DNA of 64,000 bases from NCBI RefSeq assembly GCF_000760295.1, contig NZ_JNBA01000039.1, positions 310,001 to 374,000 on the forward strand, in the 5' to 3' direction. Under the pieces are notes generated by a model, which saw nothing but the letters and a program-made list of their open reading frames with translations, searched no databases and was not told where the DNA came from. Made by a program: the position numbers and the translations under genes. Numbering within the stretch: position 1 is the stretch's first letter; the number at the start of each line of letters is the position of its first letter. Of the stretch, positions 4,037 through 61,323 are shown piece after piece. This DNA comes from Prochlorococcus sp. MIT 0701 (GTDB taxonomy: Bacteria; Cyanobacteriota; Cyanobacteriia; PCC-6307; Cyanobiaceae).

Positions 4037-5596
4037 TTAGTTGATCAGTCCTACCTCTGATGTGGACAGCGGTGGTGGAGGTAATAGCGGTAGTGGTGGA
4101 GCTCCAATAAGTGGGGGAGGTTCGATTTCGGCCGGATTTTCATGGATCGGGCCTTTTCGTTGATTGGTCTGTTGGGCTGTAGGCAGGGCCTCGCCTTCCC
4201 GAAGCAACAAAGGTGGTGGCAGATCCGGTGGAAGCAGGGTGTTGCCCCATTCCAGATCCGTTCTCAAGGGACTCTTATCTTTGCGATTCAAGGGTGAATC
4301 CAACTTTTCGTGCGTTTCGAGCAATACAAGTGGATCTGCCGTAATCGGCGGTTCCCGTAGAGGGGCTCGATCACTATTACGAGCCACAAAAGTACGTTGG
4401 CTATCGCTGGGAATGGTAGGGCCGGGCTTTGGCGCCCAGATCATCCTGGCGATGGGCTCCACACCTTGCTCTATCAATCGATTAAGTCCAGCTAGGGCTC
4501 GGTCGAATAGTTTTCCGCCCGGCCATTGTTGGCAATTAACTCCATTGCAGTCTTGGGCCCCATCAATCCTGGGGCTGAGAGAAGCTGCCAAGGTTCCCTG
4601 AAGTTGGAAGCGCCGTTCACTGAGCCTCAGGAGATAGGGAACATGCACAAAGCTTGTGACACCACCGCTAATCCAATTGGCGTCATCCTCCGTGAATCCC
4701 TTGACGCCTGGAATGATCAAACGACTCTTGGAGGCATGGTCTGGCATGTAAGCCGCCACAAGGCCACGGCTGCGGGCTAAATCCTTGCTCTGTTCAAGGG
4801 TTAACCCATCTCTGCTCATTAATACCTCCATACGCCCGTCTTGTCGCAGGCCCATGATCATCCTGATGCGAGGAAGGTAGTAGCGGATCCGCTGGCCCAT
4901 GCTGATGCTGTATGCGCCCTTGTAACGAGGAGGAGGCGCTTCCAGATCGTTGTAAATGCTGTGTAGGCCTCCGATAAAGGTGTCGTAGTTGGAGGCACGA
5001 TTGGGTGTTAGTTCTCCGTAACCGAAGTCCACTCTGCCGTTGTAGCGAATGCCTATGTAGGCGCGTTGGACGGAGGCAGCGCGATTACGACTACTCCAGA
5101 CGCGTTGACCCAGCTTGAGATCTCCAAGGGGAACTGTGATCTCTTGGCCGCCAATGTCAACATGCCGCTCGTACATCGGACCAGAGACAAATGCCAGTGA
5201 AGAAGAGTCCTGGAAAGCGTCCTGTTCTCTATCCCAGCCTTCAAGAAGGCCGAACTTCACTTTACGTGGATCAAAATCGAGTGCGTAGACCTCATCGTTT
5301 GGTCGATAGCGAAAGGGAGCATGTACTTGTCTGTTAATGCTCTCTTGGGCGACTTGACTTGGGTTGAAGCGTTCAGGTGCTTTCGGAGCCAGAGCCACAA
5401 GACCAGCAAAAACTGTGAGCGGTACCCCGATCACAAGTAAGCGTTTGGATAGCTGAGAGCGCCTGCGCTGAGGCCGTCGCCGCCGCCTTGGCGGGGAGGC
5501 TGTGCGGCCAGCACGTCTAAGTGGAGCTGCCTTTGCTTTGGTTGTAGCTGTTTTCGTTCGGGGCAAGTAAGAAATGGCTACCTTCACCATCAGCAA
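4037..5596 (-). CDS. Secreted or anchored protein with phosphodiester-glycosidase-like core and proline-rich tail
   Basis: 519 residues. The N-terminus is very basic (an Arg-rich run near residues 30-50), followed by one hydrophobic segment (LLVIGVPLTVFAGLVALAP), so the protein is probably anchored with the rest outside the cytoplasm. The middle (GLRQDGRMEVLMSRDGLTLE, then AYMPDHASKSRLIIPG) faintly resembles the NAGPA/DUF2233 phosphodiester glycosidase fold, but the usual NLDGGGS motif is not there. The last 100 residues are rich in Pro and Leu. An alternative start is Met 3. I recognise it only as a picocyanobacterial hypothetical. It is downstream-facing toward the CBS gene and stands alone. 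Confidence 0.75.
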   Translation of the reverse strand: MLMVKVAISYLPRTKTATTKAKAAPLRRAGRTASPPRRRRRPQRRRSQLSKRLLVIGVPLTVFAGLVALAPKAPERFNPSQVAQESINRQVHAPFRYRPNDEVYALDFDPRKVKFGLLEGWDREQDAFQDSSSLAFVSGPMYERHVDIGGQEITVPLGDLKLGQRVWSSRNRAASVQRAYIGIRYNGRVDFGYGELTPNRASNYDTFIGGLHSIYNDLEAPPPRYKGAYSISMGQRIRYYLPRIRMIMGLRQDGRMEVLMSRDGLTLEQSKDLARSRGLVAAYMPDHASKSRLIIPGVKGFTEDDANWISGGVTSFVHVPYLLRLSERRFQLQGTLAASLSPRIDGAQDCNGVNCQQWPGGKLFDRALAGLNRLIEQGVEPIARMIWAPKPGPTIPSDSQRTFVARNSDRAPLREPPITADPLVLLETHEKLDSPLNRKDKSPLRTDLEWGNTLLPPDLPPPLLLREGEALPTAQQTNQRKGPIHENPAEIEPPPLIGAPPLPLLPPPPLSTSEVGLIN

Positions 5597-57354: not shown

Positions 57355-57624
57355 ATGGCACGATTTGTTCTTTGGGGTACTTACTGCGAGAACGCACTTG
57401 AAAAGCGAAGCCCTTTTCGTGAAGAACACCTCAATAGGCTTACCACTCTTAAGAAGCAGGGCATTCTGATCACTCTTGGTCCAACAGAAGGGAGCACTCA
57501 TGTTTTTGGGATTTTCGAAGCCGCAAGTCTTGATGTTGTTAGGAAGCTTCTAGAGCAAGACGTTTACTGGAAGGAAGGAATATGGACCTCTCTTGAGGTT
57601 TACCCTTGGGTCCAAGCATTCTGA
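57355..57624 (+). CDS. YCII-family protein
   Basis: 89 residues starting MARFVLWGTYCENALEKRSP. Small ferredoxin-like fold with EEHLNRLTTLKKQGILITLG, a His and Asp-type pocket and GIFEAASLDVVRKLLEQDVY. YCII proteins are dehalogenase- or lactonase-like with unclear roles. It converges with the cytochrome c gene and overlaps its end by 25 bases. Confidence 0.85.
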   Translation: MARFVLWGTYCENALEKRSPFREEHLNRLTTLKKQGILITLGPTEGSTHVFGIFEAASLDVVRKLLEQDVYWKEGIWTSLEVYPWVQAF

Positions 57625-57977
57625 GCTTGAGCCCATATCCAGGCCGCCACGAGCTGATCTCCACTATCGCCGAGAACATCCTCATAGCCAGACATTTGCC
57701 CGATTCCTTCTCGAGCCACTCTGGCGATTGCTTGAGGATTATCTAGACCGTTTCGCTCTAGTGCTTTGAGCCTAAGGGTTTTGTTACGTCGAATGATATT
57801 GCCACCATTTACATGACATCCTGAACAGTGTTGCTTGAATAACGATCCTCCAGCATCGGTATCCAATGCAATGGTGCCAATAGGATGGCTCAAGAGTGTA
57901 GAGATCAGGATTAGCAATCCTGCAATTTGGCCCCCAAGTTCAAATACAAATCGCCTCAGACGAATCTGTAGATTCAT
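57600..57977 (-). CDS. Small c-type cytochrome, c6-like
   Basis: 125 residues. An N-terminal membrane segment (GGQIAGLLILISTLLSHPIG) acts as a signal or anchor. The haem site is CSGCH in LFKQHCSGCHVNGGN, and the distal Met lies in GIGQMSGYEDVL. NIIRRNKTLRLKALERNGLD is typical of c6-type cytochromes. It differs from the standard PetJ at 10649 and may be a c6C-like paralogue. Its 3' end overlaps the YCII gene. Confidence 0.88.
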   Translation of the reverse strand: MNLQIRLRRFVFELGGQIAGLLILISTLLSHPIGTIALDTDAGGSLFKQHCSGCHVNGGNIIRRNKTLRLKALERNGLDNPQAIARVAREGIGQMSGYEDVLGDSGDQLVAAWIWAQAQNAWTQG

Positions 57978-58329: not shown

Positions 58330-58884
58330 ATGGCAGAACAGGATCTGTACCGATTCCTCGACAAGGTGCAACAGCTTCAAAAAATGATTCAGTCGCTAGA
58401 AAAGGTCCCTGGCCGACGGGAGCTGCTAGCTGCTTGTGGAGATCACAACCAAGTGGTGAAGTTAGCTCGATCTTGGGGCTTTGAGATTGGACGCCGTTGG
58501 GGTGAACTTGATCCTGTCGAGCAGCTTCCTTCCGATGCCAATCTGCTAACGCGGCCATTACCTCCACAAGGACAGGAACAACAGCATCTTCTCCAAGCTG
58601 GTTCAAATTGGCGCCTAGAGCTAATTCTCTCTTGTGCTGCATCTAGTCCAGAGGGGTTCTGGTATGACCAGGCTGATCACGAATGGATTGTGCTAATCAA
58701 AGGGAGTGCACGTATGCAACTGAAAGGTCCCGATGGGTGGGTTGATCTCAGCGTGGGAGATCAGCTGCATTTGGCCCCTCACCGTCTGCATCGTGTGGAA
58801 CGAACCGATCCTCACCCTGGGACAATTTGGTTGGCTTTGTTCTGGAACGAGCAGAAAGAACCGGATCAATTGTCGCTCTCTTGA
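58330..58884 (+). CDS. Nif11-type domain fused to a cupin
   Basis: 184 residues from ATG 58330. The first 55 residues resemble the Nif11 fold used as leader in prochlorosin and related RiPP precursors: LYRFLDKVQQLQKMIQSLEK, then GDHNQVVKLARSWGFEIGRR. Residues about 85-175 are a cupin (WRLELILSCAASSPEGFWYD, HEWIVLIKGSARMQL, GDQLHLAPHRLHRVERT), with His ligands for a metal. Neither a leader cleavage site nor a core peptide is present. Function unknown. The 3' end overlaps the PsiE-like gene by 137 bases on the other strand. Confidence 0.8.
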   Translation: MAEQDLYRFLDKVQQLQKMIQSLEKVPGRRELLAACGDHNQVVKLARSWGFEIGRRWGELDPVEQLPSDANLLTRPLPPQGQEQQHLLQAGSNWRLELILSCAASSPEGFWYDQADHEWIVLIKGSARMQLKGPDGWVDLSVGDQLHLAPHRLHRVERTDPHPGTIWLALFWNEQKEPDQLSLS

Positions 58885-59299
58885 CCAGCCAATAAGCCCC
58901 GGCCAAAGCAATCGAGGCAATCCCCAGTCCAGCCAGTAACTGAGGTTTATCATCAGATCCTGGTGGCAACACGATCACTTTGCGCGCCACGGCTGTCAAC
59001 GCTGTGACAAGCACCAGCTCAATCTGTACCACGTGGCGGCGGAGATAACTGGTGACGTTCTGAAGCACTTCAAGAGCAATCAGCACAGTTAACAGATCAC
59101 CAAGAACCTTGATTAAGTCATCCCCAAGCCAGCTGTGCTGTGAATCAGCAAACAATTCACTGCCAACATTCACGATGAGCTGTGTCAATGCCGCAATGAT
59201 CACAACAACGGTGATCACTGTGAGAACCTTGACTATTACTGTTTCTCCCCAATCCACTAGGTTGAGGAATGAAGGCATTGCCCGCTTAAGACGGCGCAA
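58748..59299 (-). CDS. PsiE-like phosphate-starvation membrane protein
   Basis: 183 residues, about four membrane helices: VIVKVLTVITVVVIIAALTQ, LGDLLTVLIALEVLQNVTSY, VQIELVLVTALTAVARKVIV and GLGIASIALAGAYWLVKRAT. This is the PsiE family. The last 45 residues (from IDPVLSARSRTK) are unstructured and lie antisense to the cupin gene, which suggests a stop codon was lost or moved. Function in phosphate starvation is inferred from the family only. Confidence 0.85.
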   Translation of the reverse strand: MRRLKRAMPSFLNLVDWGETVIVKVLTVITVVVIIAALTQLIVNVGSELFADSQHSWLGDDLIKVLGDLLTVLIALEVLQNVTSYLRRHVVQIELVLVTALTAVARKVIVLPPGSDDKPQLLAGLGIASIALAGAYWLVKRATIDPVLSARSRTKPTKLSQGEDRFVPHDADGEGPNAADLPR

Positions 59300-60396: not shown

Positions 60397-61323
60397 TTAA
60401 AGGGTGCTTTCTACCAAACCACTCTGAATTCCTGTTTTGCGTAATTTTCGCAGTGCCCTTTGTACCACCTGCCTGCAGTATTCGCGACTGCAGCTCATAT
60501 GTCGTGCAACTTCCGCGAGGGTGCGCCATTCATGAGATCCGTCGAGTCCAAAACGAAGTGTGACCACCATCCGTTCTTTAGGAGTGAGGTTCGCACGATT
60601 GAGCAAAGTCCATACCGATGCAGTCCTTTCCGCTATTTCGGCACGCTCCATAGGAGGGATCTCTTCGCTGGGAAGGAGATCCACAAGTTCTGAAGGATCA
60701 GATTTTGACTTCACAACTCCTTGAAGGCTCACTGTCACACTGCGTAATTCACAAGCAAGCAGATCTTCCACTTCGGCCATCGGCAGTCGCATGGTTTTTG
60801 CCAATTGCTCAGCAGTGGGAGGCAATCCGTTGCTCTGCATCAGTCTTGACTTTGCTGCTCTTAATTTCGTGAGCTTCTCATTCACATTTACGGGAATTCG
60901 TATCGTCCTGCTCTGGGTAGATAGTGCCCGGTTAAGCCCCTGGCGAATCCACCAATAGGCATAGGTCGAAAATCGATGGCCACGGGTTGGGTCATATTTC
61001 TCCACTGCTCTTGTAAGTCCAAGCGTACCTTCTTGAATCAGATCGAGAAGATCAAGACCCTTGCCCTGGTAGCGCTTGGCCAGATTCACTACAAGTCTTA
61101 AATTGGCAGTGATCATCTGATTTTTGGCTTTTTCTCCGCGACGAATGGTGAGGCGCTGATCATCTGAGTATTCGCATTCGGGCCCCGCTCCGCCAGCGAG
61201 ATGGCAGCGATCAGTAAGCGCAACCATGGCCTGAACCTTCCGACCCATTGTGAGTTCCTGTTCAGGTGTCAGAAGTTGGTGCCGCCCGATCTCCCCAAGA
61301 TAGGCACTTAAAGAACTCACCAT
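60397..61323 (-). CDS. Group 2 sigma factor (RpoD-like)
   Basis: 308 residues, cyanobacterial SigB/C/D/E-type non-essential sigma factor for RNA polymerase. Region 1.2 at SLSAYLGEIGRHQLLTPEQE; region 2 NLRLVVNLAKRYQGKGLDLL and YAYWWIRQGLNRALS; region 3 IPVNVNEKLTKLRAAK; region 4 HTH LAEVARHMSCSREYCRQVVQ. It replaces the primary sigma under stress or light change. Which group 2 member cannot be told. Isolated gene; a GC-rich hairpin follows. Confidence 0.93.
   Translation of the reverse strand: MVSSLSAYLGEIGRHQLLTPEQELTMGRKVQAMVALTDRCHLAGGAGPECEYSDDQRLTIRRGEKAKNQMITANLRLVVNLAKRYQGKGLDLLDLIQEGTLGLTRAVEKYDPTRGHRFSTYAYWWIRQGLNRALSTQSRTIRIPVNVNEKLTKLRAAKSRLMQSNGLPPTAEQLAKTMRLPMAEVEDLLACELRSVTVSLQGVVKSKSDPSELVDLLPSEEIPPMERAEIAERTASVWTLLNRANLTPKERMVVTLRFGLDGSHEWRTLAEVARHMSCSREYCRQVVQRALRKLRKTGIQSGLVESTL

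Follow-up and report, generated by a model that had tools for sequence, protein, structure and literature searches.

In the available part of Haft et al. 2010 (PMC2887384), Nif11 leaders are described as having a core peptide behind a Gly-Gly cleavage motif. A gene in the stretch of DNA analyzed here, a 64,000-nucleotide window of the genome of Prochlorococcus sp. MIT 0701, encodes a Nif11 domain that is continued by a cupin, and the question is what such a domain does when it has no peptide to lead. The original prediction had seen a Nif11-like fold joined to a metal-binding-type cupin, with either recognition of RiPP machinery or an ancestral use of the fold as explanation, and had proposed HMM searches with Nif11 and cupin profiles and a structure prediction as checks. 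The relatives of the gene suggest another answer, namely that the Nif11 part is a conserved module, not a leader, which streamlined ocean cyanobacteria have kept alone after repeated loss of the cupin. The features of the gene are the following:

58330..58884, + strand: nif11_cupin gene, 184 aa, ATG start, whole frame with stop (ORF; TIGR03890)
58330..58506, + strand: Nif11 module, residues 1-59, three predicted helices (2-25, 29-34, 39-48) plus tail (PF07862; AlphaFold2; module profile)
58486..58506, + strand: tail motif I-G-R-R-W-G-E, residues 53-59 (invariance; end of 17 free ORFs)
58528..58851, + strand: cupin domain of 2opk type, residues 67-174 (2opk profile match; VIA-align)
58681..58683, + strand: E118, at what we take to be the canonical cupin Glu ligand position (23/24 sequences)
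58789..58791, + strand: H154, presumably at the canonical motif-2 His ligand position (23/24 sequences)

The 184-aa protein matches the NCBIfam model TIGR03890 (nif11_cupin) with E 1.4e-87 and 291.7 bits, the curated cut-off being 159.45, and the alignment joins residues 2-172 to profile positions 1-171 of 171. As a sequence match this is far beyond chance. The protein belongs over its full length to a named family and, therefore, the combination of Nif11 and cupin is an already catalogued architecture; the model is a 'hypothetical equivalog', named by its domains only. No paper names TIGR03890 in the literature searched, in which most subscription journals and preprints are outside coverage. 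The words 'Nif11' and 'cupin' appear together in PMC10783134 and PMC9426513, and PMC9723758 raises with iron a 'Nif11 domain-like protein' that cannot be tied to the nif11_cupin family.

The N-terminal half is a Nif11 domain as had been proposed: Pfam Nif11 (PF07862) matches residues 1-57 with E 7.5e-12 and 45.8 bits (gathering cut-off 23.8), these residues covering 47 profile positions and being thus about 10 residues longer than the profile. The AlphaFold2 model of the fused protein (mean pLDDT 82.8, pTM 0.59) places the three helices listed above before a loose linker near residues 62-65, which is followed by strands between residues 82 and 172. The absence of a core peptide is also borne out, since neither a core nor a Gly-Gly cleavage motif is present, and the Nif11 domain runs through R-W-G-E and the linker straight into the cupin. 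The leader model TIGR03798 gives the window protein only 13.2 bits against a curated cut-off of 32.3. As a control, eight of the 22 other PF07862 matches in the same genome were tested with this model, of which seven pass (54.6-93.3 bits) and one stays at 19.3. Two free modules of relatives, discussed below, score 27.6 and 18.1 bits, both under the cut-off, the former (L066) within 5 bits of it.

The eighth control protein is a 71-aa Nif11 protein without Gly-Gly site, located about 4.4 kb past the window end (L024, G000:C39:378400-378540). On visual comparison it is similar to a family present in 6 of 41 regions, and it may be a member of a second non-leader Nif11 family.

The C-terminal half scores below the gathering cut-off of Pfam Cupin_2 (PF07883; 18.8 against 27.2 bits), but a profile of 24 sequences matches PDB entry 2opk with E 7e-22. 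Foldseek ranks 2opk first, and VIA-align superimposes AlphaFold2 residues 67-174 on 2opk_C with Z 17.4 and rmsd 2.0 over 108 residues, the next entry having Z 14.4. From profile and predicted structure together, the cupin identity of this half is secure despite the sub-threshold Cupin_2 score, and the joining of both domains stands as it had been described. The label 'metal-binding-type' holds in part. Canonical metal cupins have the motif HxH...E plus a motif-2 His as ligands; E118 and H154 are each retained in 23 of the 24 aligned sequences, whereas the HxH pair is replaced, Y112, D113 and Q114 being found there in the window protein. A related cupin, 46% identical to the cupin half of the window protein over residues 76-172, was also noticed at positions 4475-4771 of a non-cyanobacterial contig, from Immundisolibacter (L003).

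R56, W57 and G58 are present in 24 of 24 fused sequences and are invariant across 28 fused and free modules; 8 of the 11 positions that do not vary among these 28 lie between residues 36 and 58 (C36, H39, V42, G50, I53, R56, W57 and G58). A module profile built from 26 fused and free Nif11 sequences and searched in 373 genomes of the phylum gave exactly one strong match per genome in 55 Cyanobiaceae genomes, with scores of 87.7-108 bits, the next best match having 29.1 bits; outside Cyanobiaceae the sole match had 22.8 bits (G608). Because each matching Cyanobiaceae genome has one strong match, the module is, at the sequence level, a distinct single-copy variant with invariant Cys36 and His39 and a tail I-G-x-R-W-G, unlike the leader-type paralogues. 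As it was found only in Cyanobiaceae among the 373 genomes, it looks derived, and the proposed ancestral use of the fold is not supported. For the free module, the prediction is a compact domain of three helices (mean pLDDT 92.7); a Foldseek search of it against the PDB returned no match, a result that says nothing on fold novelty.

The distribution of the two halves over genomes was followed with TIGR03890. It finds a match at E <= 0.001 in 345 of 400 Cyanobiaceae genomes, and in 211 of them the score exceeds the cut-off; 23 of the 251 near-complete genomes are without any match. A phylum-wide sample of 386 genomes contains 97 with a match, 40 outside Cyanobiaceae and 57 inside. In all 40 of the former, the best match begins no earlier than profile position 46, which corresponds to a cupin without the Nif11 half; 34 of the 57 latter are over the cut-off (fused) and 23 match at the Nif11 end. 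In a set of 30 chosen genomes, 22 have the Nif11 end alone, 6 are over the cut-off, one (G046) has a full-length match below it, and one (G008) has no match. A further match, of 22 bits to the cupin part, was given by one Nif11-end genome (G117), the only such case among the 22 Nif11-only genomes. Free Nif11 modules stay under the cut-off (89.1 and 69.5 bits against 159.45 for the two that were scored). On the evidence of these two sets of genomes, the relatives exist in three sequence states: a cupin alone, the fusion, and a free Nif11 ORF in small Prochlorococcus-like genomes, the last label being one that we infer partly from the closest named relative of the window protein (Prochlorococcus sp. 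AG-412-I05, 95% identity).

Some further cases were found in the same searches. Five genomes of genus g9 (G008, G063, G091, G114 and G133), 95-99% complete, have no TIGR03890 match; a loss of the entire gene within a single genus would make a natural control. In larger genomes, L061/L086 (G018) and L062 (G062) have both domains in one frame with a two-piece match and a longer linker. The whole protein was without match in 50,697 phage records; an IMG/VR match (L238) lies antisense inside longer ORFs of an apparent phage structural region and was dropped as due to chance.

The surroundings of the window gene are formed by the following genes:

57600..57977, - strand: cytochrome c-like gene, divergent, a conserved neighbor at a gap of 353 bases (PF13442; synteny)
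58748..59299, - strand: PsiE-family gene, convergent, whose ORF overlaps the 3' end of nif11_cupin by 137 bases (PF06146)
60397-61323, - strand: sigma-70 gene, within the same conserved neighborhood, several genes off

At 12 loci with psiE neighbors, the overlap amounts to 53-155 bases in 11 cases, and in the remaining one the two ORFs are 483 bases apart, with ORF ends that were mechanically picked. The synteny of fused and free loci and of free-cupin loci did not reveal any conserved operon pointing to a partner of the Nif11 module; for the free cupins of other cyanobacteria, no neighbor is common to more than four of 18 loci, mainly of close relatives.

The free Nif11 form was studied at 17 loci, where the ORF has 59-66 aa and ends 0-7 residues past the tail. 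The tail reads IGRRWGE in 11 of them, IGKRWGE in 4, IGERWGE in 1 and IGRRWGD in 1. Four of these loci (L101, L113, L114 and L116) occupy the slot of the fused gene, between trpA, AbrB-like, YCII and cytochrome genes and the same reverse-strand genes up to the sigma-70 gene; at the other 13 the neighborhood differs from this slot, and it is conserved among four loci of genus g18. From sequence comparison, the free form is the same gene as the Nif11 part of the fused form. For 30 free modules of g18, 277 pairs with dS 0.1-1.5, which are non-independent, gave a median dN/dS of 0.149 and a highest value of 0.489; the free (predicted) ORF is under purifying selection. The module occurs in 39 of 61 genomes of g18, and in 20 of the 22 near-complete ones. 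It is not indispensable, since two near-complete g18 genomes are without the free form and the 23 near-complete Cyanobiaceae genomes mentioned above have no match. A tblastn search with three cupin halves over 900 bases downstream of the free ORF at the 17 loci did not find cupin remnants, the best E being 0.29. For this reason, a long profile match in G042 (positions 1-103, with seven stops), which had been a candidate for such a remnant, was discarded as a chance extension. As a separate observation, the four g18 loci L109-L112 all have the same gene family 86-89 bases after the free ORF on the same strand; its member at L109 matches PAP_fibrillin (27.0 bits, cut-off 22), and that locus has a second PAP_fibrillin gene some 2.2 kb upstream.

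Whether the cupin was lost once or several times was addressed with trees built from the region of the ribosomal protein cluster (24 ORFs). Of the 40 genomes chosen, six were without rpsC match (G011, G019, G012, G042, G055 and G033), and G028, whose region is partial at the end of a contig, was omitted. As a result, only one of the four free loci that occupy the fused slot, namely that of G053, is represented. The main tree (4783 columns; 32 genomes, 18 fused and 14 Nif11-only) was drawn with large-genome Cyanobiaceae as outgroup and without the distant outgroup G494; a second tree, which includes G494, roots on the AT-rich lineage and, therefore, our main statement uses the first one. Both are quick trees without mixture model, and have an odd letter make-up in nine (main) and ten (with G494) rows. 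By parsimony, the Nif11-only rows of the main tree need four changes, and a single clade of them is rejected with p-AU 9.9e-6; well-supported branches force two changes in the main tree and four in the tree with G494. An rpoB tree of 26 genomes has little resolution, and also gives four changes of the Nif11-only label, of which two are forced. According to these trees, the cupin was lost more than once and a single origin of the loss is rejected. The cupin of G046 has an intact frame in which Q114, E118 and H154 are all lost, and this genome stands beside the Nif11-only G052 in both ribosomal-cluster trees, with SH-aLRT 93 (main) and 99 (with G494). This looks like a loss in progress, but in the rpoB tree G046 stands beside the fused G013.

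The explanation that we find best, although we hold it with somewhat less than even confidence, is that the Nif11 module is the working part of the protein and acts by docking, that the cupin is an accessory, and that the loss came after fusion, with no role as RiPP leader. The module with its RWGE tail would be the unit under selection, because it has repeatedly persisted by itself where its partner domain disappeared. It may dock to a conserved partner via helix 3 and the RWGE tail, that is, through the face with residues 36-58, and the cupin may serve as a sensor or modulator, tuning the docking and binding a metal or small molecule close to E118/H154. Such an accessory character would be the reason why the cupin could be lost while the Nif11 part was kept. 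The main alternative reverses the roles: the protein would be primarily a cupin enzyme or ligand binder, and the Nif11 part would only place, oligomerize or inhibit it. The cupin is older and wider than the fusion, since it is alone in the 40 genomes outside Cyanobiaceae and has the Immundisolibacter relative (L003), and the retention of E118 and H154 in nearly all sequences puts it under constraint where present. Nevertheless, it is the cupin that was lost more than once and the Nif11 part that stayed, the latter is under purifying selection when free, and the HxH ligand pair is replaced, so we consider this alternative rather unlikely.

We think that a transcription-linked regulator, in which the Nif11 part would bind DNA, RNA polymerase or a sigma factor and the cupin would sense a signal, is distinctly unlikely. 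Cupins do occur in transcription regulators, with 1y9q and 6b8w_A among the structural matches, the tail is basic and aromatic, and the sigma-70 gene belongs to the same conserved neighborhood; yet this gene is several genes off on the other strand, and at 13 of the 17 free loci it is absent from the vicinity of the free gene. That the module has no structural match among PDB chains speaks neither for nor against DNA binding. The recognition of RiPP machinery put forward in the original prediction, according to which the Nif11 half would direct the cupin to a machine such as ProcM or ProcT, was not supported when the RiPP enzyme LanM (model TIGR03897) was used for co-occurrence in the 400 Cyanobiaceae genomes. 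LanM is over the cut-off in 25 genomes, with any match in 29, and 24 of those 25 also match TIGR03890 (the exception is G300); with the family in 345 of 400 genomes, this overlap is what wide occurrence alone gives. None of the 22 genomes with the Nif11 half alone is among the 29. The domain is a true Nif11, the window's genome encodes a LanM, and a Nif11 domain/cupin protein is placed within a RiPP-cluster network in the available part of Arias-Orozco et al. 2023 (PMC10783134), but that LanM is on contig C7 and nif11_cupin on C39, and the leader model and the Gly-Gly motif fail as described above. A RiPP link of nif11_cupin is not supported by these sequence comparisons, which indicate that its Nif11 part is not a leader, and we regard the recognition of RiPP machinery as very improbable. 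Hardly any credence can be given to a free ORF that is itself a secreted or processed peptide, with the fused gene as relic of a precursor: it is small and of the Nif11 family, and extracellular Nif11 proteins are predicted in a marine secretome, in a source whose available part does not tell which ones (PMC11928666); however, it has no cleavage motif and, as it ends 0-7 residues past the tail, there is nothing left to release.

Coming back to the docking module, it is quite possible, if still somewhat short of probable in our judgment, that in picocyanobacteria the Nif11 fold also serves for something other than a leader. The protein would then be a single-copy adaptor that docks through its RWGE tail, at first joined to a cupin sensor and later set free, with 60 residues, in two or more (probably four) lineages that lost the cupin. 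Databases and mining tools would misread it as a RiPP precursor because they equate Nif11 with leaders. Genome mining may thus count such Nif11 proteins as RiPP precursors, and this is a warning. Single-copy, and kept without core or cupin in genomes in which no LanM was found, the module offers a clean case of the fold acting alone, and bears on the question of the roles of Nif11 in ocean cyanobacteria beyond RiPP biosynthesis. Moreover, the free 60-residue form could be used directly as a small bait to find the partner, and natural before-and-after comparisons are offered by the losses of the cupin. A free Nif11 form arising by repeated cupin loss was not found in the literature searched, with the limits of coverage given above; this includes the available parts of PMC9723758, PMC2887384, PMC8002600, PMC2784084, PMC3877281, PMC11928666 and PMC10783134.

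With respect to known systems, the window gene is an ordinary member of TIGR03890, with the same architecture over its full length and no difference from it. With the Nif11 leaders of RiPPs (TIGR03798; ProcA of the prochlorosins) it shares the domain family PF07862, and it differs from them in failing the leader model, in having about 10 more residues, in the replacement of Gly-Gly by R-W-G-E and in the absence of a core. PDB entry 9zn4, a Nif11 domain-containing protein, is a weak profile match to the module, with E 0.014, above the usual threshold. The cupin half resembles REUT_A1446 of Ralstonia eutropha (2opk; E 7e-22, Z 17.4), whose function is a guess given in its title, 'putative mannose-6-phosphate isomerase', and has the TIGR03890 profile in common with the free cupins of 40 cyanobacterial genomes outside Cyanobiaceae; both of these are without the Nif11 module. 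The fused architecture was known through the family model; its relatives appear to show that the Nif11 fold can be used otherwise than as a leader.
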